Position numbers and translations under genes: made by a program. This document shows, in pieces, positions 7,034 through 63,243 of a stretch of DNA of 64,000 nt. A model generated the notes under the pieces. It was not told the DNA's origin. It saw only the letters and a program-made list of their open reading frames with translations, and did no database searches. Positions within the stretch are counted from its first letter, which is position 1, and every line of letters begins with the position of its first letter. Origin of the DNA: Nocardioides hwasunensis (lineage in GTDB: Bacteria; Actinomycetota; Actinomycetes; Propionibacteriales; Nocardioidaceae); NCBI RefSeq assembly GCF_014779665.1, contig NZ_JACXYY010000003.1:496001-560000 (forward strand), given 5' to 3'.

Positions 7034-7807
7034 ATGTCTCGTTCCACCTCTCGCTCGGTCCACGGTGGCCGCCACGAGCTCGGCCAGAACTTCCTCCACC
7101 ACGCGCCCACCCTCGACCGCATCGCCCGGCTCGTCGCCGACACCGACGGTGCGATCATCGAGCTCGGCGCCGGTGACGGCGCCCTCACCCGCGTCCTGGT
7201 CGGCCTCGGCCGCGACGTCACCGCCATCGACCTCGACGAGCACCTCGTGCGACGCCTGCGCACCGCCGTGCCGGACGCCCGCGTCGTGCACGCCGACGCG
7301 CTCACCCACCCGCTCGACCGCCCGGTCGTCGTCGGCAACGTCCCCTTCCACCTGACCACTCCCATCCTGCGGCGGCTGCTGCGCGAGCCCGCCTGGGAGC
7401 ACGCGGTCCTGCTCGTCCAGTGGGAGGTGGCACGCAAGCGCGCCGGGGTCGGTGGCGGCACGATGATGACCGCGCAGGCAGCACCGTGGTTCGACGTCGG
7501 GCTCGCCGGCCGCGTGCCCGCCCACGGCTTCACGCCGAAGCCGTCCGTCGACGGGGGCCTGCTGCGGATCGAGCGCCGCCCCGAGCCACTCGTGCCACCC
7601 GCACGGCGTACGGCCTACGAGCGGTTCGTGCACGGCGTCTTCACCGGCCGCGGCGGTTCGCTCCACCGCATCCTCCAGGCGGCCGCGCGCGTCGACGCCC
7701 GACGTGCGGACCTGGCGATGGAGCGCGCCCAGATCGATCGGCGCAGCCTGCCGCGCGACCTGACGCCGCGCCAGTGGGCCGACCTGTGGCACGCCGTGCG
7801 GGGCTGA
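7034..7807 (+). CDS. erm: 23S rRNA (adenine-N6) methyltransferase, Erm family
   Basis: The 257-residue protein is an Erm/KsgA-type SAM-dependent methyltransferase. Erm enzymes methylate A2058 of 23S rRNA and confer macrolide-lincosamide-streptogramin B resistance. It opens with GGRHELGQNFL (11-21), typical of Erm rather than KsgA. It has SAM motif IIELGAGDGALT (41-52) and the catalytic NVPFHLTT (102-109). GGGAG at 7022-7026 precedes the ATG at 7034. Long upstream spacing with a leader peptide fits inducible resistance. Neighbours are housekeeping, so it looks like an intrinsic gene rather than a mobile one. KsgA is the alternative but the N-terminus and length argue against it. Confidence 0.87.
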   Translation: MSRSTSRSVHGGRHELGQNFLHHAPTLDRIARLVADTDGAIIELGAGDGALTRVLVGLGRDVTAIDLDEHLVRRLRTAVPDARVVHADALTHPLDRPVVVGNVPFHLTTPILRRLLREPAWEHAVLLVQWEVARKRAGVGGGTMMTAQAAPWFDVGLAGRVPAHGFTPKPSVDGGLLRIERRPEPLVPPARRTAYERFVHGVFTGRGGSLHRILQAAARVDARRADLAMERAQIDRRSLPRDLTPRQWADLWHAVRG

Positions 7808-7877: not shown

Positions 7878-8186
7878 ATGGGCGAGATCCTGGAGTTCCC
7901 CGCACCCGCACCGGCCGCGCCGGGTGAGCGGTCCGAGCAGCCCGAGCCCCTGTGGCGCGAGCTGGTCGGACGCGAGGTGCGTCGCGAGCGCGTGCGTCGC
8001 GGCGAGCGACTCGTCGACGTCTCCGGGCGTGCCGGCGTCTCCACGCAGTACCTCTCCGAGGTCGAGCGCGGTCTCAAGGACCCGTCCTCGGAGATGCTGC
8101 AGGCGATCGCCGGCGCGCTGGACCTGAGTGTCCGCGAGCTCGCCACCCGGGTGTCGGCCCCCACGGCGCTGGCGCTCGCCGCCTGA
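7878..8186 (+). CDS. XRE-family regulator, PopR/ClgR-like
   Basis: This 102-residue protein has an N-terminal variable stretch and a helix-turn-helix at about residues 25-85 (VREVRRERVRRGERLVDVS and VSTQYLSEVERGLKDPSSEM regions). It resembles ClgR and PopR, the activators of clpP genes in Streptomyces and relatives. It ends in ALALAA, like the ssrA tag and like the degradation signals reported for ClgR/PopR, so it may itself be a Clp substrate. It converges on two clpP genes whose 3' end is 14 bases away. I infer that it controls them. Autoregulation through the palindrome at 7820 is possible. Confidence 0.75.
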   Translation: MGEILEFPAPAPAAPGERSEQPEPLWRELVGREVRRERVRRGERLVDVSGRAGVSTQYLSEVERGLKDPSSEMLQAIAGALDLSVRELATRVSAPTALALAA

Positions 8187-8199
8187 GCCGCCTCCGGCG

Positions 8200-8802
8200 T
8201 CAGCCCAGCGCCGGGCCTTGCTCGTGCAGGACGGCGTCGACGATGCCGTAGTCGACCGCGGCCACGCCCGGCAGCACGAGCGTGCGGTCGGTGTCCTGCC
8301 GCACCTGCTCGGTCGTACGCCCGGTGTGCCGCGCCAGGATCTCCTCGAGCTCCAGCCTGACCCGGGCCACCTCGTCGGCCTCCAGGATCAGGTCGGGCAC
8401 GGTGCCGCGTCCCTGGGTCGCCGGCTGGTGGAGCACGACCCGGCCGTGCGGCAGGATCGCCCGGCTGCCCTCCGATCCCCCGGCCAGCAGCACCGCCGCC
8501 GTCCAGGCCGCCTGCCCCACGCAGACCGTCTCCACGCGCGGCTTGACGAACTGCATGGCGTCGTAGATCGCGAGCATCGCCGAGATCGAGCCGCCGGGTG
8601 AGTTGATGTAGAGGCTGATCGGCCGGTCCGGGTTCTCCGAGGACAGGTGCAGCAGCTGCGCGATGACCGCGTTGGCGACGCCGTCGTCGATCTCGGTGCC
8701 GAGGTAGACGATGCGCTCGGACAGCAGCCGGGAGTAGAGGTCGAGGGTGCGCTCGCCCCGTGGCGTCTGCTGGACGACGTACGGGATCGTGTAGGTGCTC
8801 AT
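8200..8802 (-). CDS. clpP: ClpP-family protein lacking the catalytic serine
   Basis: The 200-residue product has the full ClpP fold: SLYINSPGGSISAMLAIYD, then VGQAAWTAAVLLAGG, LPHGRVVLHQP and the C-terminal QDTDRTLVLPGVAAVDYGIVDAVL. The nucleophile position, normally Ser in GxAAS, is Trp (W100, codon TGG at 8503-8505 on the plus strand read CCA). His125 and Asp172 of the triad remain. The subunit should therefore be proteolytically dead yet able to form rings. Its ATG overlaps the stop of the active clpP upstream (ATGA), which favours a 1:1 mixed complex. A scaffold, pore or adaptor-docking role is my inference. Confidence 0.9.
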   Translation of the reverse strand: MSTYTIPYVVQQTPRGERTLDLYSRLLSERIVYLGTEIDDGVANAVIAQLLHLSSENPDRPISLYINSPGGSISAMLAIYDAMQFVKPRVETVCVGQAAWTAAVLLAGGSEGSRAILPHGRVVLHQPATQGRGTVPDLILEADEVARVRLELEEILARHTGRTTEQVRQDTDRTLVLPGVAAVDYGIVDAVLHEQGPALG

Positions 8803-9422
8803 CGGGCACCCGCCAGACCGGCTCCGGCCAGACCGACGGGGCGCTGCTGCGCCGGCGTCACGTGGTCGAGCGAGGTGATCACCTGGTCGACGAAGCCGTA
8901 GGCCAGCGCGTCCTCGGCGGTGAACCAGCGGTCGCGCCGTGAGTCGCCTTCGATCGTCTCCCGGCTCTGGCCGGTGTGCTGCGCGACCAGACCGATCACG
9001 GTGTCGCGCGTCAGGCGCAGGTCGTCGGCCTGGATCTCGATGTCCACCGCGGTCCCGCCGATCACTGCGGACCCCTGGTGCAGCAGCACCCGTGAGTGCG
9101 GGAGCGCGTAGCGCTTGCCGGGCGTCCCGGCCGACAGCAGGAACTGACCGGCACTGGCGGCCATGCCCATCGCGAGCGTGCTGACGTCGTTCGGGATCAG
9201 CGTCATCACGTCGTGGATGGCCAGCATCGCCGAGACCGAGCCGCCGGGTGAGTTGATCCAGAGGCTGATGTCGGCGCGCGGGTCCTCCGCGGAGAGCAGC
9301 AGCAGCTGGTGCATCAGCCGGTTGCCGTTGCCCTCGCGCAGCTCGTCGCCGAGGACGATGATGCGTTGGTGCATGAGGCGGCGGACCAGCTCGTCCTCGA
9401 TGCGTTCTGACGTGGGATTCAT
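8799..9422 (-). CDS. clpP: ATP-dependent Clp protease proteolytic subunit
   Basis: This 207-residue ClpP carries an intact triad: S90 in GMAASAGQF, H115 in SRVLLHQ and D164 in SRRDRWF. It would work with ClpX or ClpC ATPases to degrade proteins. Two ATGs are possible, 9428 and 9422; the second has better spacing from the purine run GGGGG and is used here. It is the first gene of a two-gene operon with the serine-less ClpP, and both face the XRE regulator. This resembles the clpP3-clpP4/popR layout of Streptomyces, a second Clp set in addition to the main clpP1P2 pair. Confidence 0.93.
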   Translation of the reverse strand: MNPTSERIEDELVRRLMHQRIIVLGDELREGNGNRLMHQLLLLSAEDPRADISLWINSPGGSVSAMLAIHDVMTLIPNDVSTLAMGMAASAGQFLLSAGTPGKRYALPHSRVLLHQGSAVIGGTAVDIEIQADDLRLTRDTVIGLVAQHTGQSRETIEGDSRRDRWFTAEDALAYGFVDQVITSLDHVTPAQQRPVGLAGAGLAGAR

Positions 9423-9470
9423 GCTCATGCCCCCACAGTGGCCGGCACTCCCGGTCCACCACAGGGTGTC

Positions 9471-9495
9471 CTGCCGTGGGCGGATCCGCCTGCAG
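9471..9495 (-). promoter_or_regulatory. Dyad upstream of the clpP pair
   Basis: GGCGGATCCGCC (9479-9490) is a perfect 12-base palindrome flanked by CTGC and GCAG. It lies between the 3' end of the MFS gene (ends at 9503) and the clpP start at 9422. It may be the MFS terminator or an operator for clpP; it does not resemble the palindrome at 7820. Confidence 0.35.
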
Positions 9496-9502
9496 CTGAT
9501 CG

Positions 9503-38063: not shown

Positions 38064-40352
38064 ATGCGCCTGCCCGTTCGTCGTACGGCGATCGCCACCG
38101 TCGCCACGCTCTGCACCTCGCTCCTCCTCGCCGCACCCGGCCACGCCGGTCCGGGCGGCGGACACGAAGGCGGACACGAAGGCGGACACGGAGGTAGACA
38201 CGGTGGGCACGACCACCGCGGCCACGGTGGCGGCACGAGCCGCTGGGTGGACGTCCCGACGCTCGTCGGACGCGCCACGATCGACGCCGACCACCTGGCT
38301 CCCGGCCCGCCGTCCGGCGCGCAGATGACACCGGCCAACGGTCGGACGGGCCCGTTCCCCGGCCAGGTCGTCCCCGGCTTCTCCGCGATGCTCGACAACG
38401 GCGACGGCACCTTCTGGGCGATGCCCGACAACGGCTTCGGCGCGAAGGGCAACTCCGCGGACTTCCTGCTCCGGATGTATCTGGTGCGCCCCAGCTTCGA
38501 GGGAGCCGGCGGCGACGGGTCGGTCGACCTGCCGGAGCTCATCTCGTTCGCGGACCCCGATCAGAGGGCGGGCTTCCCGATCGTCAACGACGACACCGAG
38601 GAGCGCCTGCTCACCGGCGCGGACTTCGACATCGAGTCGGTCGTGCGCCTGCGCGACGGCAGCTTCCTGGTCGGCGAGGAGTTCGGCCCGTACCTCCTGC
38701 ACTTCGACACCGACGGCGTCCTGCTCGACGCGCCCGTGCCGCTCCCCGGCGTCCAGTCCCCGCAGAACCCGGACCTCGGCGGGGCGCAGCCCACCCTGCC
38801 GGCCAGCAAGGGCTTCGAGGCGACGGCGTACGACGGCTCGCGCTACGCCTACCCGATCCTCGAGGGCGCGCTGATCGCGGAGACCGACCAGCGCGTGCGT
38901 CGGATCAGCCAGCTCGACACCCGCACCATGCGCTACACCGGCAAGACGTGGACCTATCGCACCGTCGAGGCGGCCAACCTGGTCGGCGACGCCTTCATGA
39001 CCGGCCGCGACCGGATGCTCATCCTCGAGCGCGACAACTTCGGCGGCGCGCAGGCCGTCACCAAGCGCGTCGTCGAGGTCGACCTCCGCAGGGCCGAGCC
39101 CGCCGGACACCTCGTCACCGAGCCCGTCCTCGACCTGCTCAAGATCGCCAACCCCGACGGCATCGGCGAGGGCGACGGCTACGGCACCGGTGAGGAGTTC
39201 TCGTTCCCGTTCGTCTCCGACGAGACGGTCGTCCAGATGCGGGACGGCAGCTTCGTCCTCACCAACGACAACAACTACCCCGGTGACGACGCCCGCGTGG
39301 ACGGCGAGCCCGACGACATCGAGATCATCCACGTCGAGCTGCGGCGCCAGAAGCTTCGCACCGGCGGGCCGACGGTCTTCGCCCACCGCGGCGCCTCGGG
39401 CTACCGCCCCGAGCACACCATCGCCGCCTACGAGCTCGCCGCCCGCCAGTGCGCCGACTTCGTCGAGCCCGACCTCGTGATGACCAGGGACGGCGTGCTC
39501 GTCGACCGCCACGAGCCCGAGATCGGCGGCACCACCGACGTCGCCACTCGCGCCGAGTTCGCCGACCGCAGGGCCACCAAGCAGGTCGACGGTCGCGCAG
39601 TGACCGGCTGGTTCACCGAGGACTTCACCCTCGCCGAGCTCAGGACCCTGCGGGCCAAGGAGCGGCTGCCGCAGCTCCGCCCGGAGAGCACGACCTACGA
39701 CGGGCTCTACCAGGTGCCCACCCTCGACGAGGTCCTCGCCTTCGCCCGCCGCACCGAGACCTGCGACGGCGAGCCGATCGGCGTGATCCCCGAGATCAAG
39801 CACAGCACCTACCTCGCCGACGCCGGCCTGCCGGCCGAGCAGCCGCTGCTCGACGCGCTCGCCCGCAACGGCGTCCGTCCCGGTGACACCCCGGTCGTGA
39901 TCCAGAGCTTCGAGGTGGGCAACCTCCAGCGCCTCTCTCGGATGACTCGCTTCGACCTCGTCCAGCTCGTCGACTGCGCCGGCGCGCCCTACGACCAGGT
40001 CAGGGCCGGCACCGGGGTGACGTACGCCGACCTGGTGACCCGCGACGGCATGCGCAAGATCGCGAGGTACGCCGACAGCGCCGGACTGTGCAAGGACGTG
40101 ATGATCCCGCGCCGGGCCGACGGCAGCCTGGGCAGGCCGACGGACGCGATCCGCAACGCCCACCGGGCCGGGCTCACCGTGACCGGCTGGACCTTCCGCC
40201 GGGAGAACTCGTTCCTGCCGCTGGAGTTCCGCTCCTCGGCCGACCCGGCCGCGGCAGGCGACGTCGCCGGCGAGATCCGGACCTTCCTCCGCGCCGGCAT
40301 GGACGACTTCTTCACCGACCACCCCGACATCGGCGCCGCCGTGGCCGGCTAG
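38064..40352 (+). CDS. Secreted phytase-like esterase fused to glycerophosphodiester phosphodiesterase
   Basis: The 762-residue protein has a Sec signal peptide (about 1-28) and a His/Gly-rich stretch with His at 34, 38, 42, 46, 49, 51 and 54. An esterase-like-phytase beta-propeller domain follows (about 60-410: FSAMLDNGDGTFWAMPDNGFGAK, FDIESVVRLRDGSFLVGEEFGPYLLHFD). The last part is a GDPD barrel (about 435-758) with the catalytic HRG at 441-443, later EPDLVMTRDGVLVDRHEPE. It should release glycerol-3-phosphate and phosphate from phosphodiesters outside the cell. A PHO-box-like repeat upstream fits phosphate control. Confidence 0.87.
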   Translation: MRLPVRRTAIATVATLCTSLLLAAPGHAGPGGGHEGGHEGGHGGRHGGHDHRGHGGGTSRWVDVPTLVGRATIDADHLAPGPPSGAQMTPANGRTGPFPGQVVPGFSAMLDNGDGTFWAMPDNGFGAKGNSADFLLRMYLVRPSFEGAGGDGSVDLPELISFADPDQRAGFPIVNDDTEERLLTGADFDIESVVRLRDGSFLVGEEFGPYLLHFDTDGVLLDAPVPLPGVQSPQNPDLGGAQPTLPASKGFEATAYDGSRYAYPILEGALIAETDQRVRRISQLDTRTMRYTGKTWTYRTVEAANLVGDAFMTGRDRMLILERDNFGGAQAVTKRVVEVDLRRAEPAGHLVTEPVLDLLKIANPDGIGEGDGYGTGEEFSFPFVSDETVVQMRDGSFVLTNDNNYPGDDARVDGEPDDIEIIHVELRRQKLRTGGPTVFAHRGASGYRPEHTIAAYELAARQCADFVEPDLVMTRDGVLVDRHEPEIGGTTDVATRAEFADRRATKQVDGRAVTGWFTEDFTLAELRTLRAKERLPQLRPESTTYDGLYQVPTLDEVLAFARRTETCDGEPIGVIPEIKHSTYLADAGLPAEQPLLDALARNGVRPGDTPVVIQSFEVGNLQRLSRMTRFDLVQLVDCAGAPYDQVRAGTGVTYADLVTRDGMRKIARYADSAGLCKDVMIPRRADGSLGRPTDAIRNAHRAGLTVTGWTFRRENSFLPLEFRSSADPAAAGDVAGEIRTFLRAGMDDFFTDHPDIGAAVAG

Positions 40353-40361
40353 CGCACGTCG

Positions 40362-40367
40362 TAGGTT
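40362..40367 (+). promoter_or_regulatory. -10 box of the EEP gene
   Basis: TAGGTT lies ten bases after the previous stop and 33 bases before the ATG at 40401; GGAAAGG at 40382-40388 is the ribosome binding site. Confidence 0.35.
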
Positions 40368-40400
40368 GGCCACACCCCTCTCGGAAAGGTCTTCACCTCC

Positions 40401-41729
40401 ATGACTTCTCGACTCACGCGCGCCGCCGTCACGGCGCTCGCGCTCGCCGGCCTCGCCACTCCCGCGCTCGTCACGCCCGCCGTCGCCGGCGGTGGACCCG
40501 GCCGCGGACATGGCGGCCACGGACCGGGACACGGCCACGGGCACGGGCCGGGACACGGCCACGCGAAGGGTGACGTCCGGTTCTCGACGTTCAACGCCTC
40601 GCTCAACCGCAACGGCGCCGGTGACCTCGTCCGCGACCTGTCGACGACCGACAACGCCCAGGCGGCCGCGGTCGCCGAGACGATCCAGCGCACCGACCCC
40701 GACGTGCTGCTCATCAACGAGTTCGACTACGTCGAGGGCGGCCGGGCCGCCGAGCTGTTCCGCGCCAACTACCTCGAGGTCCCCCACAACGGCGCGAAGC
40801 CGGTGGACTACCCCTACTACTACGTCGCGCCGGTCAACACCGGCGTGCCGAGCGGCTTCGACCTCGACAACAACGGCGTGGTCGGCGAGCCCGGCACCCA
40901 GGCGGGCGGCGACGACTCGTTCGGCTTCGGGCTCTACCCCGGCCAGTACGGCATAATCGTCTACTCCAAGCACCCCATCGGCACCCGCGACGTGCGCACC
41001 TTCCAGCACTTCCTCTGGAAGGACATGCCTGATGCGGCGCTCCCGGACGACCCGTCGACGCCCGAGCCCGCCGACTGGTACTCCCCCGAGGAGCTCGACG
41101 TCCTCCGGCTGTCGTCGAAGTCGCACTGGGACGTGCCGATCCAGCTGCCCGGACGGCAGACCGTGCACTTCCTGGTCTCGCACCCGACTCCCCCTACCTT
41201 CGACGGCCCCGAGGACCGCAACGGCCGGCGCAACCACGACGAGATCCGGTTCTGGGCCGACTACGTCAGCGGCGGGCACCACGCCTCCTACATCTACGAC
41301 GACGGCGGCGAGCGCGGCGGTCTCGGCCGGGGCGAGCAGTTCGTCATCGCGGGCGACCAGAACGCCGACCCCTTCGACGGCGACTCCTACGACGGGGCGA
41401 TCCGGCAGCTGCTCGACCACCCGCGCATCACCGACCCGCACCCGACCTCCCCGGGTGCCGTGGAGCAGTCGGAGCTGCAGGCAGGCGCCAACCTCGCCCA
41501 CACCGGACCGGCCGCGGAGGACACCGCGGACTTCGCCGACACCCCGCCCGGCAACCTGCGGGCCGACTACGTCCTGCCCAGCGAGCGCCTCACTCCGAAG
41601 CGGGCGGGCGTGTTCTGGCCGCTGGCGAGCGACCCGCTGTTCGGCCTCGTCGGCACCTTCCCGTTCCCGGCGAGCGACCACCGGCTCGTGTGGCTCGACG
41701 TCAAGGTCGGCGCAGCACACCACCGCTGA
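40401..41729 (+). CDS. Secreted endonuclease/exonuclease/phosphatase (EEP) family protein
   Basis: The 442-residue protein has a Sec signal peptide ending near residue 29 and a GH-repeat stretch with His at 37, 40, 44, 46, 48, 52 and 54. An EEP domain follows: RFSTFNASLNR, DPDVLLINEF with the metal-binding Glu, FLVSHPTPP, VIAGDQNADP and FPFPASDHRLVWLDV with the catalytic Asp-His. Such enzymes cleave DNA or phosphodiesters outside the cell. It stands between two other secreted phosphatases with the same His-rich leader. Confidence 0.85.
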   Translation: MTSRLTRAAVTALALAGLATPALVTPAVAGGGPGRGHGGHGPGHGHGHGPGHGHAKGDVRFSTFNASLNRNGAGDLVRDLSTTDNAQAAAVAETIQRTDPDVLLINEFDYVEGGRAAELFRANYLEVPHNGAKPVDYPYYYVAPVNTGVPSGFDLDNNGVVGEPGTQAGGDDSFGFGLYPGQYGIIVYSKHPIGTRDVRTFQHFLWKDMPDAALPDDPSTPEPADWYSPEELDVLRLSSKSHWDVPIQLPGRQTVHFLVSHPTPPTFDGPEDRNGRRNHDEIRFWADYVSGGHHASYIYDDGGERGGLGRGEQFVIAGDQNADPFDGDSYDGAIRQLLDHPRITDPHPTSPGAVEQSELQAGANLAHTGPAAEDTADFADTPPGNLRADYVLPSERLTPKRAGVFWPLASDPLFGLVGTFPFPASDHRLVWLDVKVGAAHHR

Positions 41730-41762
41730 TCCTGCAGCGATGTCGCGAAGGGGACGGCCGGT

Positions 41763-41784
41763 GTTCACCGCTCGTCCACCTGCC
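41763..41784 (+). promoter_or_regulatory. PHO-box-like direct repeat
   Basis: GTTCACC (41763) and GTCCACC (41774) are 11 bases apart, about 70 bases before the phoX-like start. Confidence 0.5.
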
Positions 41785-41855
41785 GGCTCCGCGGTGGGCG
41801 ATGCAGGCACCGAGGGTCGGAGGGTCATCCCCCGCTTCTCGGAAGGTCCCTCACC

Positions 41856-43898
41856 ATGAGCCCCCGCACCCCCCTGCCCCTGCTCCCCATGGCCGATCGC
41901 ACCCACGGCAACCGCAGCGCGGTGACCTGCCACCTGCGCTGCGGTGACGCCTGCTTCGCCGCCGCTCCCAACGGCACCGACACGTCGTACTTCCGCGACG
42001 TCGCCGCCCAGGCCCTGAGCCGCCGCACGGTGGTCGGCAGCGGTGTCGCAGCTGCCGCCCTCACCGCCGTGCCGGCCCTCCCGGCCGCCGCGAAGCCCGG
42101 CACGGGCGGGCCCGGTCACGGCCACCCCGGGCACGGACATCGCGACCCACTGCCCTTCACCGCGATCGCGCCCGTCGCCACGACGGTCGACACGGTGACC
42201 GTCCCGGCCGGCTACCGCTGGGACCCGATCCTGCGCTGGGGCGACCCGATCCTGCGCGGCGCTCCCGCCTTCGACGGTGCCCACCAGACTCCCGAGGCGC
42301 AGGCCGGCCAGTTCGGCTACAACAACGACTACCTCGACATCATCGAGACGAACCGCTCCGGCACGAAGGCGCTGCTCGTGTGCAACCACGAGTACACCAA
42401 CGAGACCATCATGTTCCCGCCCGGCACCGACTCCGAGACCGTCATCCGCACGGCCTGGGCGGCCCACGGCATGTCCGTCGTCGAGCTCACCCGCCGGCGT
42501 CGCGGGGAGAGGTGGACCTACGTCCCCGGTGCCCGCCTCAACCGCCGGATCACCCTGGACACGCCCTTCGTCCTCGACGGCCCGGCCGCCGGCTCCGACC
42601 TGTTCAAGACGGCCGAGGACCCGACCGGCCGCACCGTGCGCGGCACGATGAACAACTGCGCCGGCGGCACCACCCCGTGGGGCACCGTGCTGTCGGGCGA
42701 GGAGAACTTCAACCAGTACTTCCGCGCCACCGGGACCGACCCGAAGGAGGCCCGCTACGGCCTCTCCGCCACCCAGGACACCCGCAACTGGCGCTCGGTC
42801 GACCCGCGCTGGGACGCCACCACGGCTGACTACGAGAACGAGCCGAACCGGTTCGGCTGGATCGTCGAGATCGACCCGTCCGACCCGCGCTCGACCCCGG
42901 TCAAGCACACCGCGATGGGCCGCTTCAAGCACGAGGGCGCCAACGTCATCCTCAACGGCGACGGGCACGTGGTGGCCTACATGGGCGACGACGAGCGCTT
43001 CGACTACCTCTACCGCTTCGTGTCGAAGGACCGGGTCCGCGGCGGCGGGCACCACCGGGCCGGACGCCGGCACGGGCAGCGCTCACCGCTCAGCGAGGGT
43101 GACCTCTCGGTTGCGCGGTTCACCGGCGACGGGCTCGAGGACGGGGTCAGCGACGGCACCGGCGAGTGGATCCCGCTCACCCGCGACGGCCGGTCGATGG
43201 TGCCGGGCTTCAGCCTCGAGGAGGTGCTGGTCTACACGCGCCTGGCCGCCGACGCGGTGATGCCGACCAAGATGGACCGGCCCGAGGACGTCGAGCCGAG
43301 CACGCACAACGGCCGGATCTACGTCGCCTGCACCAACAACACCGATCGCGGCAAGCCGGGCAAGGAAGGCCCGACCGAGCCCAACCCGCGTGCGGCCAAC
43401 AAGGACGGCCACATCGTCGAGATCGTCCCCGACGGCGCCGACCACACCCGGACCACCTTCACCTGGAACCTGCTGCTCGTCTGCGGGGACGCGGCGTCGG
43501 CCGGCACCTACTTCGGCGGCTGGACCGGCCCGGTGTCGCCGATCTCCTGTCCCGACAACGTCGCGTTCGACAGCGTCGGCAACCTCTGGATCTCGACCGA
43601 CGGGCAGCCGAGCGCGATCAAGCTCAGCGACGGCCTCTTCAAGGTGCCCGTCGAGGGTCCCGAGCGTGGTCACGTGCAGCAGTTCCTGGCGGTCCCCTCG
43701 GGCGCCGAGACCTGCGGCCCGGTGATCCACGACCGGGACGGCTCGGTCTTCGTCGCCGTCCAGCACCCGGGCGAGGACGGCTCGTGGGAGGCGCCGCAGT
43801 CCCGCTTCCCGGACTTCGTGCCCACCGGCGCCGCCAGCCGCCCCGGCCAGTTCTCCGGTCCGCGGCCCACCGTCGTGCAGGTGACGCGCAGCCGCTGA
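41856..43898 (+). CDS. phoX: PhoX-family alkaline phosphatase, Tat-exported
   Basis: The 680-residue protein matches PhoX/DUF839. A long N-terminal region leads to a twin-arginine signal SRRTVVGSG (55-63) and a hydrophobic Ala stretch, then a His/Gly segment with His at 88, 90, 93 and 95. Domain marks are LLVCNHEYTNE, NNCAGGTTPWGTVLSGEENF and FGWIVEIDP; PhoX enzymes use Fe and Ca. It liberates phosphate from organic monoesters. Tat genes lie 2.7 kb downstream. The first 50 residues before the RR motif, with three Cys and no membrane segment, are typical of PhoX precursors. Confidence 0.92.
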   Translation: MSPRTPLPLLPMADRTHGNRSAVTCHLRCGDACFAAAPNGTDTSYFRDVAAQALSRRTVVGSGVAAAALTAVPALPAAAKPGTGGPGHGHPGHGHRDPLPFTAIAPVATTVDTVTVPAGYRWDPILRWGDPILRGAPAFDGAHQTPEAQAGQFGYNNDYLDIIETNRSGTKALLVCNHEYTNETIMFPPGTDSETVIRTAWAAHGMSVVELTRRRRGERWTYVPGARLNRRITLDTPFVLDGPAAGSDLFKTAEDPTGRTVRGTMNNCAGGTTPWGTVLSGEENFNQYFRATGTDPKEARYGLSATQDTRNWRSVDPRWDATTADYENEPNRFGWIVEIDPSDPRSTPVKHTAMGRFKHEGANVILNGDGHVVAYMGDDERFDYLYRFVSKDRVRGGGHHRAGRRHGQRSPLSEGDLSVARFTGDGLEDGVSDGTGEWIPLTRDGRSMVPGFSLEEVLVYTRLAADAVMPTKMDRPEDVEPSTHNGRIYVACTNNTDRGKPGKEGPTEPNPRAANKDGHIVEIVPDGADHTRTTFTWNLLLVCGDAASAGTYFGGWTGPVSPISCPDNVAFDSVGNLWISTDGQPSAIKLSDGLFKVPVEGPERGHVQQFLAVPSGAETCGPVIHDRDGSVFVAVQHPGEDGSWEAPQSRFPDFVPTGAASRPGQFSGPRPTVVQVTRSR

Positions 43899-49521: not shown

Positions 49522-51384
49522 ATGACCTCGTCCACCCCTGCACCCACGCCCGCGCCGAGTCCTGCTCGTCGCAGCGTGCTCACCGGCGCCGCAGCACTCA
49601 CCGCGGCCGGTTTCGTCGCCCACCCGGCGCCGGCCGACGCGCACGGCGGTGGTCGCCACGGCGGGCACCACGGGCACCGCTCGACACGGCTGACCGTGCT
49701 CGGCACGACCGACCTGCACGGCAACGTCCTCAACTGGGACTACTTCAAGAACCTCGAGTTCGACAACGCCACCCACGACGACATCGGCATCGCCAAGGCC
49801 GCCACCCTGATCAAGGCCGCCCGCCAGCGGCTGCGGCACCAGCCGGTGCTGACGCTCGACGCCGGCGACACCATCCAGGGCACGCCCCTGGCCTACTACT
49901 ACGCCCGCATCGAGCCCATCACCGGCGGCACCGTCCACCCGATGGCACGCGCCATGAACCTCGTCGGCTACGACGCCGCCGCGCTCGGCAACCACGAGTT
50001 CAACTACGGCATCGACACCCTGCGCACCTTCGAGTCGCAGCTGGACTTCCCGCTGCTCGGCGCCAACGCGGTCGACCCGGCCACGGGTCGACCCGTCTTC
50101 CCGCCCTATGTCATCAAGAAGCTCCGCGTCCACGGTGGCCCCCACCTCACCGTCGGCGTCCTGGGCCTGACGAACCCCGGTGTGGCCCTGTGGGACAAGG
50201 CCAACGTTGAGGGCCGCATCGAGTTCCCGGGCCTCGTCGAGCAGGCGAGGAAGTTCGTGCCGGAGCTCAGGCGCCGCGGGTGCGACGTGGTGGTGATCAG
50301 CGCCCACAGCGGCGCCGACACCTCGTCGTCGTACGGCGACGCGCTGCCGTGGCCGGAGAACGCCGCGTCCCTCGTGGCCGAGCAGGTGCCCGGCGTCGAC
50401 GCGATCCTCGTCGGGCACGCCCACAAGGAGATCCCCGAGCGGTTCGTCACCAACGTGCGCACCGGACAGCAGGTGCTGCTCTGCGAGCCGCTCTACTGGG
50501 GCATGCGGGTCGCCGTGATGGACCTCGACCTCCGTCACGAGCGCGGCCGGTGGAAGGTGGTCGCCGCCCACGGGCAGACCCTCAACTCCAACACCGTCGC
50601 CGGCGACCCGGCCGTCCTCGCCGCCGTGCAACGTCAGCACGACACGGTCGTGGGCTACGTCAACTCCCCCGTCGGCACCTCGGCCGCGGCCCTCTCGGCC
50701 GCTCGCGCGGTCGTCGAGGACGTGCCGATCATCGACTTCGTGCAGTTCGTGCAGGCCGACGCGGTCAAGGCCGGGCTCGTCGGTGCCGACGCCGCGCTCC
50801 CGGTGCTGTCGATCGCCGCGCCGTTCAACCGCTCCGCGTCGTTCCCCGCCGGGGAGGTCACCGTGCGTGACGTGGCAGGTCTCTACATCTACGACAACAC
50901 GCTGCTCGCCGTGAAGGTCACCGGTGCGCAGGTGAAGGACTACCTCGAGTTCTCCGCGCGCTACTTCCAGCAGGTCTCCGGGGCCGGGCCGTTCACCCTG
51001 GACCAGGTGACGAACGCCGTGACGCCGACGGCTCCCAACGGCACCCCCGACTACAACTTCGACTCCGTGGCCGGCCTCGACGCCCCGCTGACCTACGACA
51101 TCGACATCGCCCAGCCCGCCGGGTCGCGCATCGTCGGGCTCGCCTACGACGGGCAGCCCGTGACCGCCGACCGGGAGTTCGCGCTGGCGGTGAACAACTA
51201 CCGGCAGTCCGGAGGCGGTGGCTTCCCCCACGTGTCGACAGCGCCGGTGGTCTACAACCGGCAGAACGAGATCCGACAGCTCCTCATCGACTGGGTGACG
51301 GCCCACGGCACGATCGACCCGGCCGAGTTCGCCTCGGTCGACTGGCGCCTGGTCTCCGGCGGACGGCCGGTGAGCGTCTCGTGA
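49522..51384 (+). CDS. Tat-exported 5'-nucleotidase/2',3'-cyclic phosphodiesterase family protein
   Basis: The 620-residue protein has a twin-arginine signal ARRSVLTGAAALTAAG (15-30) and a His-rich stretch (His at 41, 46, 49, 50, 52). A calcineurin-like metallophosphatase domain follows (LGTTDLHGNV, LDAGDTIQGTP, ALGNHEFNYG, VGHAHKEIPE). The C-terminal nucleotidase domain has VYNRQNEIRQ near its end and FAVNNYRQSGGGGFP-type substrate residues. It would dephosphorylate nucleotides outside the cell. It shares its His-rich leader with the three phosphoesterases upstream. Confidence 0.9.
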   Translation: MTSSTPAPTPAPSPARRSVLTGAAALTAAGFVAHPAPADAHGGGRHGGHHGHRSTRLTVLGTTDLHGNVLNWDYFKNLEFDNATHDDIGIAKAATLIKAARQRLRHQPVLTLDAGDTIQGTPLAYYYARIEPITGGTVHPMARAMNLVGYDAAALGNHEFNYGIDTLRTFESQLDFPLLGANAVDPATGRPVFPPYVIKKLRVHGGPHLTVGVLGLTNPGVALWDKANVEGRIEFPGLVEQARKFVPELRRRGCDVVVISAHSGADTSSSYGDALPWPENAASLVAEQVPGVDAILVGHAHKEIPERFVTNVRTGQQVLLCEPLYWGMRVAVMDLDLRHERGRWKVVAAHGQTLNSNTVAGDPAVLAAVQRQHDTVVGYVNSPVGTSAAALSAARAVVEDVPIIDFVQFVQADAVKAGLVGADAALPVLSIAAPFNRSASFPAGEVTVRDVAGLYIYDNTLLAVKVTGAQVKDYLEFSARYFQQVSGAGPFTLDQVTNAVTPTAPNGTPDYNFDSVAGLDAPLTYDIDIAQPAGSRIVGLAYDGQPVTADREFALAVNNYRQSGGGGFPHVSTAPVVYNRQNEIRQLLIDWVTAHGTIDPAEFASVDWRLVSGGRPVSVS

Positions 51385-59457: not shown

Positions 59458-59488
59458 CCTTCTTCTGGCCGAGATGAACACATCTCCT

Positions 59489-62485
59489 TCATTCCCAGAA
59501 GACGTGCTCCACCACCGCGTGGGCGCGTCGCGTGGTGCGGAGGTAGTCGTTGACCATCTCGTCCGAGGAGCCCTGCGGATAGCCCAGCACCCGCGCCACC
59601 GCTGCGCGCTCGCGGGCGTCGCGGGGCAGCTGGTCCGAGGGCCTGCCGCGCACCAGCGTCACCGCGTTGCGGACCCGGCTCACCAGCCGCCAGGCCTCGG
59701 CCAGTGTCTCCGCGTCCGCCCCGGCGACCAGCCCGGCTCCGGCTGCGGCCTCGAGGGCCGGCAGGGTCTGGGGCGTCCGGAGCGCCTCGACGCGTCCCGC
59801 GTGACGCATCTGGAGCAGCTGCACGGTCCACTCGACGTCGGCGAGCCCTCCTCGGCCCAGCTTGAGGTGGGTGTGCCGGTCGGCTCCACGTGGAAGGCGC
59901 TCGTCGTCGACCCGCGCCTTGATGCGGCGCACCTCCACGACGTCGCGCTCCGAGATGCCGTCGGCGGGGAAGCGGAGCGGGTCGATCAGTGCGGTGAACC
60001 GACGACGCAGGTCCTCGTCGCCGACCACCGCGTCGGCGCGCAGCAGGGCCTGGAACTCCCACACGTGCGACCACTTGGCGTAGTAGGCGGCGAACGACTC
60101 CAGCGTGCGCACCATCGGCCCGTTCTTCCCCTCGGGCCGGAGGTCCGCGTCGACCTCGAGCGGCGGGTCGCTGGCGGGCAGCGACAGCAGCCGACGGAGC
60201 TCGGAGACCACGGCCTGCGCGAACGAGGACGCCGCCTGCGCCTCGGCGCCCTCGACCGGCTCGTGGACGAACATCACGTCGGCGTCACTGCCGTAGGACA
60301 GCTCGAAGCCGCCGTAGCGACCCATCGCGACCACCGCGATCCGGCTGGCGGGCGCGTCGAGCCCGCGCTGGCGGCGCACCGACTCCGTCGCGATGTCGAG
60401 CGTGGCCTGCAGGGTGGCGTCGGTGAGCCGGCTCAGACCTTGCCCCACCAGCGCCACGTCGGTCCCGGCCACCAGGTCACCGCAGGCGATCCGCAGCAGC
60501 TCGCGCCGGCGTACGGCACGCACCGCGCCGACCGCCGACTCCGCGGAGTCGGCGCGCTCGGCGAGCGCCTGCATCTCGGCGAGCGCGGCCTCCGCGCTCA
60601 GCGGCACCAGCGACTCCCCGAGCATCTTCACGCCGCGCGGCTCGCGCTCGAGGAGGTCGGTGGCGTAGCGGGAGGTGCCGAGGAGGTAGGCCAGCCGCTG
60701 TGCCACCTCGCCCTCGTCGCGGAGCATCGTGAGGTACCACGGGGAGCGGCCCAGGCTCTCGCTGAGCCGGCGGAAGCCGAACAGGCCGGCGTCGGGGTCG
60801 GGCGAGTCGGCGAACCACTCCAGCAGCACCGGCAGCAGGGTGCGCTGGATGTCGGAGGTGCGCGAGATCCCGCTGGTCAGCGCCTCGAGGTGGCGCAGCG
60901 CCGCCCTGGGATCGGCGTACCCGAGCGCGGACAGGCGTGCCTCGGCGGCCTCCAGCGAGAGTCGCGCCTCCGTGCCGGGGAGCCTGGCGACGGCACCGAG
61001 GAGCGGGCGGTAGAAGAGCTTCTCGTGGAGCCGGCGCACCTCGCGACGGTGGTAGCGCCACTCCTTGTCGAGCGCCGCGGCCGGTTCGGACAGGTGGCCC
61101 AGCGACCGGCCGAGGCGACGCAGGGATGCCGCGTCGTCGGGCACCACGTGCGTACGCCGGAGCTGGTGCAGCTGCATCCGGTGCTCGAGCGTGCGGAGGA
61201 ACGTGTAGGCCTCGTGGAGCTTCTCGCCGTCGTCGCGACCGACGTAGCCGCCCTCCGTCAGCCGGGCCAGCGCGCTCAGGGTGGCGCCCTCCCGCAGCGA
61301 CGCGTCGGCGCGGCCGTGCACGAGCTGGAGCAGCTGGACGGCGAACTCGACGTCGCGCAGGCCGCCCGAGCCGAGCTTCAGCTGGCGCTCGGCCTCGTGG
61401 GCCGGGATGTGGTCGATCACCCGGCGGCGCATGGCCTGGACGTCGGAGACGAAGCCGTCGCGCTCGGCGACGCTCCACACCATCGGCTCGACCATCTCGA
61501 CGTAGGCCCGGCCGAGCTCGAGGTCGCCGGCGACCGGTCGTGCCTTCAGCAGGGCCTGGAACTCCCAGGTCTTGGCCCACTTCTCGTAGTAGCCGCGGTG
61601 GCTGGCGAGGGTGCGGACCAGCGGGCCCTGGCTGCCCTCCGGACGCAGGTTGGCGTCGACCGGCCAGATCGTGCCCTCGCGGGTGTGGTCGGAGCAGATC
61701 CGCATCAGGTGCGAGGCGAGCTGCGTGGCGGTGCGCAGCGCCAGCCCGTCGTCGGCGGGCTCCCCCGAGTCGAGCACACCGGGCTCGAAGACGTAGACCA
61801 CGTCGACGTCGGAGATGTAGTTGAGCTCGTGCCCACCGCACTTGCCCATCGCGATCACGGCGAGGCGGGCGGCGTGGGCTGCCTCCCCGACGCGGGCGCG
61901 CGCGATCGCCAGGGCTCCCTCGAGGGTCGCGGCCGCGAGGTCGGAGATCTCCGCCGCGGCGTCGTCGAGGCTGACGTGGTGCGCGAGGTCGCGAGCGGCG
62001 AGCCGGAGCAGGATCCGGCGGTACTCCACGCGCAGGGCGTCGACCGCCTCCGCGTCGGGGAGGCCGGCGACCGGCCCCGGTGCCTGCGGGTCGGCACCGA
62101 CCGCAGTCAGCATCGCCTCGCGGACGGCGTACGCCGCAGCGCGGGTGCTGCCGAGGGTCGGGTCGGTGAGCTCGCGCCAGTGGTCGGGGTGCCGGACCAG
62201 GTGGTGGGTCAGCGCGGCGCTCGCCCCCAGGACGCTGCACAGCCGCATCGCGGTGCCCTCGTCGTCGGCGACCTCGGCCAGCATCGCGGCCCCCGCGTCC
62301 GGCCCCGCCGCCTCGTCGAGCGCCTCGACGAGACGCAGCAGGCCGTCGAGGGCGGCGTCCGGGTCGGCGGTCGCGGCGAGCTTGTCGGTCAACGGCCTGC
62401 CTGCGGCACCGAGCCTCTCGATGCCCCGAGCGGCCGCAGCGCCGTCGACGAACCCGATGCGCACGTAGGAGCCCGACGACGTCAT
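59489..62485 (-). CDS. glnE: Glutamine synthetase adenylyltransferase/adenylyl-removing enzyme
   Basis: The 998-residue bifunctional enzyme has two nucleotidyltransferase domains. The N-terminal one has GKCGGHELNYISDVDVVYVFEP at about 212-235, usually the deadenylylating half. The C-terminal one has MGRYGGFELSYGSDADVMFVHEP at about 715-740. Helical domains link them. It adjusts glutamine synthetase to nitrogen supply. AAGGAG precedes the ATG at 62485, which overlaps the amidotransferase stop (ATGA). It follows a glutamine synthetase gene, as in the actinobacterial glnA2-glnE order. Confidence 0.96.
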   Translation of the reverse strand: MTSSGSYVRIGFVDGAAAARGIERLGAAGRPLTDKLAATADPDAALDGLLRLVEALDEAAGPDAGAAMLAEVADDEGTAMRLCSVLGASAALTHHLVRHPDHWRELTDPTLGSTRAAAYAVREAMLTAVGADPQAPGPVAGLPDAEAVDALRVEYRRILLRLAARDLAHHVSLDDAAAEISDLAAATLEGALAIARARVGEAAHAARLAVIAMGKCGGHELNYISDVDVVYVFEPGVLDSGEPADDGLALRTATQLASHLMRICSDHTREGTIWPVDANLRPEGSQGPLVRTLASHRGYYEKWAKTWEFQALLKARPVAGDLELGRAYVEMVEPMVWSVAERDGFVSDVQAMRRRVIDHIPAHEAERQLKLGSGGLRDVEFAVQLLQLVHGRADASLREGATLSALARLTEGGYVGRDDGEKLHEAYTFLRTLEHRMQLHQLRRTHVVPDDAASLRRLGRSLGHLSEPAAALDKEWRYHRREVRRLHEKLFYRPLLGAVARLPGTEARLSLEAAEARLSALGYADPRAALRHLEALTSGISRTSDIQRTLLPVLLEWFADSPDPDAGLFGFRRLSESLGRSPWYLTMLRDEGEVAQRLAYLLGTSRYATDLLEREPRGVKMLGESLVPLSAEAALAEMQALAERADSAESAVGAVRAVRRRELLRIACGDLVAGTDVALVGQGLSRLTDATLQATLDIATESVRRQRGLDAPASRIAVVAMGRYGGFELSYGSDADVMFVHEPVEGAEAQAASSFAQAVVSELRRLLSLPASDPPLEVDADLRPEGKNGPMVRTLESFAAYYAKWSHVWEFQALLRADAVVGDEDLRRRFTALIDPLRFPADGISERDVVEVRRIKARVDDERLPRGADRHTHLKLGRGGLADVEWTVQLLQMRHAGRVEALRTPQTLPALEAAAGAGLVAGADAETLAEAWRLVSRVRNAVTLVRGRPSDQLPRDARERAAVARVLGYPQGSSDEMVNDYLRTTRRAHAVVEHVFWE

Positions 62486-63243
62486 GGCGACGGCTCCTTC
62501 CCCGCATCGTCTGCCACCAGGGCGGCGAACCGCGTGGCCACCGGTTGCCACCACGACGTCAGCGCGGCCGTGGCCGCCTCGATCGAGGTCAGGACCGCCT
62601 GCGGGTCGAAGGTCTCGTCCTCGCGCTCGGTCGCGAGCCAGCGCTCGATGATCGCGGCGTCAGCCTCCGGGTGGGACTGGACGCCCCAGACGCGTGGTGC
62701 GAACCGGGCGACCTGCACCTCGCCGCCCGGGGTGCGCGCCAGCACCACGGCGCCGTCGGGCAGCTCCACCACGACGTCGTCGTTCCAGTGGATCGCGCGC
62801 TCGTCGCCGGAGCAGACGCCGAAGAGCTCGTCGGTCGCTGCGTCGTCGCTCCAGCCGAGCGGTTGCAGACCGACGGTGCGCCCGAGCGGGTTGCGCCCGA
62901 CGACCCCGCCGAGCGCGGTGGCGACCAGCTGGTGGCCCAGGCAGATGCCGAGCAGCGGTGTGCCGACGGCGACCGCGTCCCGGATGCCCGCCTTCAGCGG
63001 CGACAGCCACGGGTGCAGGTGGTCGTCGTCGGCGCCCATCTCGCCGCCCAGCACCAGCACGCCGTCGTACGACGTCAGGGCGGGCAGTGCGTCACCCGCG
63101 TAGGGCCGGCAGACCTCGAGCGTGCAGCCCGCCCCGGTCAGCCACTCCCCGACCAGTGCCGGCGGGCACGACTCCTCGTGCTCGACGGCCAGCACGCGCG
63201 GGCTCGCCACGCCGACGGCGTGGTCGGAGGCGGCAGGATTCAT
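62482..63243 (-). CDS. Class I glutamine amidotransferase-like protein
   Basis: The 253-residue protein has the class I triad: nucleophile C101 in LLGICLGHQ, H191 and E193 in GVQSHPEAD. It resembles GMP-synthase-type stand-alone amidotransferases, some of which act as gamma-glutamyl hydrolases in polyamine or folate breakdown. It lies between glnA and glnE, so a link to glutamine metabolism is likely, but the acceptor is not known. Its start is seven bases after the glnA stop. Confidence 0.85.
   Translation of the reverse strand: MNPAASDHAVGVASPRVLAVEHEESCPPALVGEWLTGAGCTLEVCRPYAGDALPALTSYDGVLVLGGEMGADDDHLHPWLSPLKAGIRDAVAVGTPLLGICLGHQLVATALGGVVGRNPLGRTVGLQPLGWSDDAATDELFGVCSGDERAIHWNDDVVVELPDGAVVLARTPGGEVQVARFAPRVWGVQSHPEADAAIIERWLATEREDETFDPQAVLTSIEAATAALTSWWQPVATRFAALVADDAGKEPSP

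Follow-up and report, generated by a model that had tools for sequence, protein, structure and literature searches.

Can a ClpP subunit that carries a tryptophan in place of its catalytic serine be more than a damaged protein, and what is its relation to the neighbouring subunit, whose active site is complete? The question is raised by a pair of clpP genes of Nocardioides hwasunensis located in the window analysed here (the whole stretch of DNA, 64,000 nucleotides). The features on which the discussion turns are these, in window coordinates; papers are cited throughout by PMC number.

8799..9422, minus strand: upstream ClpP, ClpP3-like (P0002), 207 residues; PF00574, 211.5 bits
9155-9153 (S90), 9080-9078 (H115) and 8933-8931 (D164), minus strand: triad codons of P0002, from sequence and alignment
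8200..8802, minus strand: downstream ClpP, ClpP4-like (P0001), 200 residues; PF00574, 216.8 bits; W100, H125, T174
8503..8505, minus strand: TGG codon of W100, at the nucleophile position, from sequence
8281..8283, minus strand: codon of T174, at the position of the catalytic Asp, from alignments
8284..8289, minus strand: D172-R173, putative inter-ring contact pair, acidic/basic in 165/165 triad-broken subunits; role after PMC6110781
8799..8802, minus strand: ATGA start-stop overlap of the two clpP genes, from sequence
9470..9499, no strand assigned: PopR-box-like near-palindrome, agreeing with 19/24 positions of the S. lividans PopR box
7878..8186, plus strand: popR-like HTH regulator, 102 aa, C-terminus ALALAA; PF01381; convergent with the clpP genes

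The locus and its two catalytic triads

Both proteins match the PF00574 profile (peptidase family S14) over the whole domain and far above its cut-off of 20.2 bits; two general subfamily models of ClpP also recognise P0001 above their cut-offs, and no equivalog model does. VCVGQAAWTAAVLL is the part of P0001, read from window 8200-8802 on the minus strand, that contains W100. For P0002, a second in-frame ATG lies 6 bases further upstream (9428). The ATGA overlap of the two genes, described as translationally coupled in the earlier note, is present in the sequence.

The triad columns of P0002 are S90-H115-D164, the very residues named in the earlier note and those that an active Ser-His-Asp peptidase requires. 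Those of P0001 are W100-H125-T174, which do not make up such a set. The Trp at the nucleophile position (TGG at 8505-8503) and the remaining His125 had thus been read correctly, but Asp172, which had been taken for the third catalytic residue, has to be reassigned. In alignments with PDB chains and in the tblastn columns, the catalytic Asp of homologues (the last D of DTDRD) falls on T174 of the TDRT motif of P0001; D172-R173, two residues before this column, is equivalent to Asp170/Arg171 of SaClpP, which form a salt bridge across the ring-ring interface (PMC6110781). Two of the three triad residues of P0001 are therefore gone, and only His125 remains.

The host genome contains two clpP pairs, corresponding to its four ClpP matches, and the housekeeping pair, located on another contig, has intact triads. 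P0001 is 49% identical to housekeeping ClpP2 and 45% to ClpP1, P0002 58% identical to ClpP1 and 42% to ClpP2; by this measure P0001 resembles ClpP2, and P0002 resembles ClpP1. The nearest named loci to P0001 are those of Nocardioides. A search for an ATPase dedicated to the pair returned three ClpB_D2-small matches genome-wide, none of them on the contig of the pair.

The presence of a popR-like neighbour, also suspected at the outset, is confirmed and extends well beyond this genome. A convergent popR-like homologue occupies the same place in 207 of the 244 distinct loci whose flank extends over 500 bases or more (146/162 broken, 61/82 intact), and 190 of these 207 homologues end in Ala-Ala. 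In PopR, a C-terminal Ala-Ala is a degron. The box of the window, scored against the S. lividans PopR box given in PMC9775585, is separated by 47 bases from the ATG (9422) of the upstream clpP gene. The same box is found exactly (24/24) in 8 loci of SGD/SGE type; a score of at least 16/24 is reached in 203 of the 248 loci with an upstream region, against 7/248 after shuffling, and at least 17/24 in 22 of 23 W-type loci, against 0/23. A genome-wide scan with a degenerate PopR box gave no excess of sites over the reversed control, so that the candidate box of the window rests on its position and conservation and not on its rarity. Taking together the second clpP pair, the convergent popR-like gene ending in Ala-Ala, the PopR-box-like site and the ATGA overlap, we regard this locus, on the strength of its sequence, as the Nocardioides version of the Streptomyces clpP3-clpP4-popR locus.

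Other genes of the window can be mentioned in passing. Directly before the popR-like gene, at 7034-7807 (plus strand), there is a gene of the rRNA adenine dimethylase family (PF00398, 113.9 bits), possibly Erm-like. Phosphorus-scavenging genes lie at 38064-43898 and 49522-51384 (plus strand): a phytase-like/GDPD fusion, an endonuclease/phosphatase, a PhoX alkaline phosphatase and a 5'-nucleotidase. Finally, an open frame of 1209 aa at 59474-63103 (plus strand), a candidate gene only, has no Pfam match at E <= 0.001.

Triad loss in the downstream subunit across Actinomycetes

The earlier note had called for an alignment of second clpP genes, and its outcome is strongly one-sided. If "broken" designates any triad column other than S, H, D (including D to E and D to N, some of which are perhaps still active), the downstream triad is broken in 165 and intact in 84 of 249 distinct pairs, and the upstream triad is SHD in all 249. 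The substitution of Ser by Trp in a coupled pair, first singled out as a peculiarity, is real, but it is just one of several that have affected the same subunit across Actinomycetes.

The pattern is the same at two scales. Among 393 genomes drawn from the class Actinomycetes, such a gene occurs in 120 (match threshold E <= 1e-66, which favours relatives of P0001), with 77 downstream triads broken and 43 intact; the states include AHD (23), SGD (18), GHD (7), EHN (6), EHH (5), WHT (4) and SHN (4), besides others. The upstream partner is SHD in 119 of the 119 cases where it was found; in the one locus without an upstream match, the contig begins there. Within the genus, 118 genomes were searched and 76 have such a gene (rows scoring above the housekeeping copies): the downstream triads are SHD in 25, WHT in 16, AHD in 15, SDD in 8, GQD in 8, GED in 2, WHD in 1 and AQD in 1, i.e. 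51 of 76 are broken, and upstream SHD is retained in 76/76. As controls we used the housekeeping copies of 40 genomes of the genus plus that of the window, where both ClpP1 (41/41) and ClpP2 (41/41) are SHD. In the samples examined, only one pair is affected, and in it only one subunit. The 84 pairs with an intact downstream triad indicate that this loss is tolerated, not required.

A few details define these counts. The named loci are the nearest relatives of P0001 and not a random draw. The family matches of the window's own genome (L001-L004) were kept out of the pair counts, L001 being one of the 41 controls. Also outside the 249 are L230 (contig edge, EHN) and 11 partnerless single ClpP loci (L167, L170, L171, L173-L175, L177 and L180-L183), all 11 of them SHD; L330-L335 enter the genus tally only and are absent from the tree. 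In the three loci inspected for in-frame stops (L137, L199, L200), these stand at the 3' end, beyond the conserved domain.

In a maximum-likelihood tree calculated after removal of the triad columns, we counted at least 10 changes between the intact and broken states, and residue changes of 14 (Ser), 8 (His) and 17 (Asp); these numbers are minima on one best tree and give no direction of change, and strongly supported branches underlie only 4 of the 10 intact/broken contrasts. The W-type proteins are the clearest case, since 23 of 24 form one clade with a support of 94, made of the W/H/T group (19) and the W/H/D group (4); the remaining one, L051, is placed elsewhere with low support. Asp being the usual residue at the third triad position, the Trp lineage most likely replaced Ser by Trp first and Asp by Thr later. 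The Streptomyces-type SGD/SGE group (20) and the E-type, A-type, G-type and SDD groups stand apart on the tree. A few intact sequences (L052, L057, L058; L075) lie inside broken groups, which calls for regain or for additional losses. Single ClpPs of other classes are interspersed with the downstream sequences, which may accordingly not be one clade. The g4 genomes are taken here as Streptomyces because they have the PopR box (exact in several) and because their SGD state is also that of the named S. fungicidicus.

Three further observations can be recorded. clpP pairs with a convergent HTH gene also occur on large plasmids, in Streptomyces (L308), Prescottella (L310) and Tsukamurella (L311), with broken downstream triads (SGD, GHQ and AHD, respectively). 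Among L211, L215, L239 and L244 and L217, L223 and their relatives (g276, g290, g293), an SHN group stands beside a group with Glu at the Ser position (EHN/EHH). The SHN state, with Asp replaced by Asn and Ser kept, is reminiscent of Listeria ClpP1, and such subunits are perhaps still active. Lastly, the residue that follows the upstream catalytic Ser is Ala in 108 of 123 pairs with the downstream Ser lost and in 19 of 126 with it kept, the usual alternative being Met. The active subunit may have acquired a different substrate pocket, a reading not separable from ancestry, as the tree offers too few independent contrasts to test an association with the change in the partner.

What the broken subunit retains, and possible readings of its role

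In the W/H/T group, the median dN/dS is 0.140 for the downstream and 0.145 for the upstream gene (171 pairs each; Nei-Gojobori, pairs with dS 0.05-1.5), so that constraint in the Trp lineage is equally strong on the dead subunit and on its partner. The corresponding downstream/upstream medians are 0.163/0.172 for SGD, 0.270/0.263 for SDD, 0.301/0.352 for AHD and 0.425/0.477 for SHD, where the higher values come from more divergent sets and may be inflated by saturation of dS. Given such strong constraint, we consider the gene of P0001 to be neither an error nor in decay, and the view that a dead subunit is encoded together with an active one, already put forward in the earlier note, is well supported by sequence.

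What has been preserved can be specified. With the pocket columns defined after E. coli positions given in PMC9765437, the residues that should receive the loops of a Clp-ATPase are S63/Y65/F85 in P0001 and S53/W55/L75 in P0002. Downstream, Tyr65 is found in 249/249 pairs and position 85 is occupied by F, Y or H in 249/249; upstream, residue 55 is Y/F in 101/249 and residue 75 is Leu in 181/249. The aromatic docking pocket expected on one subunit type of an asymmetric core is therefore present, and on the downstream subunit. The same columns read S-Y-F in 35 of 41 housekeeping ClpP2 and F-H-Y in 41/41 housekeeping ClpP1, so that a cutting subunit with a deviating pocket is no peculiarity of this pair. 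The acidic/basic ring pair is kept in all 165 broken subunits, including the 52/52 that lost the catalytic Asp. An AlphaFold2 model of P0001 has the ClpP fold (pLDDT 86.4) and aligns to PDB entries with TMq of 0.85-0.92 over the best 50 matches listed, among them chains of M. tuberculosis ClpP1P2. In the broken subunits catalysis has thus gone, but the docking residues and the ring contacts have stayed.

We think it rather probable that the pair assembles into a mixed ClpP core where cutting is left to the upstream subunit alone and the downstream pseudoprotease docks the ATPase and admits substrate, the triad of the latter having been lost repeatedly in Actinomycetes. P0002 would be the cutting subunit. 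P0001, predicted to fold as ClpP and to retain both the aromatic pocket for the ATPase loops and the ring-joining residues, would be the ATPase-facing, substrate-admitting half of the barrel, and its active sites would be dispensable, hence their repeated loss. The recurrence of one-sided disarming suggests that the downstream subunit has turned from a blade into a docking platform. This division of labour is inferred from the ClpP1P2 experiments together with the ClpP2-like character of P0001 and the ClpP1-like character of P0002: in S. hawaiiensis ClpP1P2, the S131A mutation of ClpP2 leaves full activity and removal of the ClpP2 pocket stops degradation (PMC9765437), and M. tuberculosis with clpP2 S110A grows normally, its authors proposing that ClpP2 is the ATPase dock and ClpP1 the cutter (PMC9067928). 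By analogy with ClpP1P2 of Mycobacterium and Streptomyces, the two subunits would sit in separate rings of a mixed tetradecamer, one of them perhaps the obligate inactive ring suggested in the earlier note, with the ATPase presumably docked on the dead side; we assume that P0001 pairs with P0002 rather than with the housekeeping subunits, and PopR would presumably induce the pair when ClpP1P2 fails.

A bolder version of this scenario, which we find doubtful, is that the backup Clp of Actinomycetes has repeatedly been fixed half-dead, with one heptameric ring retained purely to dock the ATPase and to form an antechamber for the substrate. The old active sites would then hold residues that differ between lineages (Trp here; Gly-Pro, Ala-Val, Phe or Glu elsewhere) and that adjust gating or the release of products, and in the Trp lineage the side chain would plug the specificity pocket and lock the ring in one conformation.

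The most serious competitor, to which we would give somewhat less than an even chance, holds that the unneeded triad of a rarely used backup has simply drifted neutrally, the Trp having no function and the protein being kept as a scaffold or to close the ring. It overlaps with the division of labour proposed above, and the two differ in whether the loss was useful. Neutral drift would account for the many different substitutions seen at all three positions, for the 84 of 249 pairs that are still intact and for the dispensability of the Ser of the second subunit in the M. tuberculosis and Streptomyces ClpP1P2 experiments (PMC9067928, PMC9765437). It fits less well with a Trp100-Thr101 doublet fixed in 24/24 members of the W lineage, with a whole-protein dN/dS as low as that of the partner, or with what look like settled states elsewhere (Gly then Pro in 25/33, Ala then Val in 30/53), although shared ancestry may explain the latter.

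We regard as unlikely the idea that the dead subunit enters the housekeeping ClpP1P2 core and regulates it in a dominant-negative manner. The 49% identity of P0001 to housekeeping ClpP2 and the constraint on its gene are compatible with it, but a lone inhibitor would not need a co-encoded active partner, let alone one whose triad is kept in 249/249 pairs, and clpP3clpP4 of S. lividans supports life in the absence of clpP1clpP2 (PMC9765437). It is much less probable still that the nucleophile has shifted by one residue and that the subunit remains active through Thr101. This Thr follows W in 24/24 W-type proteins and His125 is kept, but the catalytic Asp is gone as well (T174), and a hydroxyl residue at +1 is frequent in the Ser-type itself (77/126) and absent in 32/53 of the A-type and 29/33 of the G-type. 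As for an error of sequencing or assembly at the TGG codon, which the earlier note had named as its refutation, its probability is negligible and we reject it, since TGG is present in 24/24 distinct W-type sequences (that of the window included) and Trp in 17 of 76 same-genus genomes, named Nocardioides assemblies likewise, and all these relatives would have to share the error.

Comparison with known two-ClpP systems

Such alleles had already been noted, in one sentence, for Streptomyces coelicolor and Nocardia (PMC9067928). In the literature searched, largely without subscription journals and partly consisting of incomplete texts, we found no description of Ser-to-Trp in ClpP, of double triad loss, of a survey of triad loss in clpP3clpP4 or of its one-sidedness. 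The scale of the loss, its one-sidedness and the Trp state thus appear to be new. Close relatives with intact and broken triads offer natural material for studying the purpose of the second set of active sites. For the little-studied ClpP3P4 core, the division of labour proposed here also predicts the subunit that an active-site inhibitor must hit.

The closest known system is clpP3-clpP4-popR of Streptomyces, which shares with the present locus a second clpP pair besides clpP1P2, the gene order, the convergent HTH gene and the PopR box (24/24 positions there, 19/24 here). In the g4 genomes and in the named S. fungicidicus, the downstream subunit is broken too, but there by a change of His to Gly, whereas here Ser and Asp have been lost (W, T). 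Viability of S. lividans requires either clpP1clpP2 or clpP3clpP4 (PMC9765437); if its ClpP4 is broken as in the g4 genomes, growth is already being sustained by a half-dead core.

ClpR of cyanobacteria, plastids and apicoplasts is likewise a ClpP homologue without a working triad that works together with active ClpP (PMC7966870). P0001 resembles it in lacking a working triad, a likeness drawn from the description of ClpR; here, in contrast, the organisms are Actinomycetes, intact and broken relatives exist side by side, and the gene overlaps that of the active partner. In Listeria monocytogenes, one subunit of a two-ClpP system also has a non-canonical triad, ClpP1 carrying Asn172 and gaining an active triad in the heterocomplex (PMC9765437), but in our case the nucleophile itself is gone.

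Finally, in ClpP1P2 of Mycobacterium and Streptomyces, according to the reports cited above, cutting falls to one subunit and docking of the ATPase to the other, and the Ser of the second subunit is dispensable, just as we propose for the present pair, with the difference that both triads are intact there and the asymmetry is here fixed in the genome. The asymmetry of ClpP had been revealed before by engineered mutants of these bacteria; here nature has repeated the experiment, always on the same subunit in the genomes sampled.
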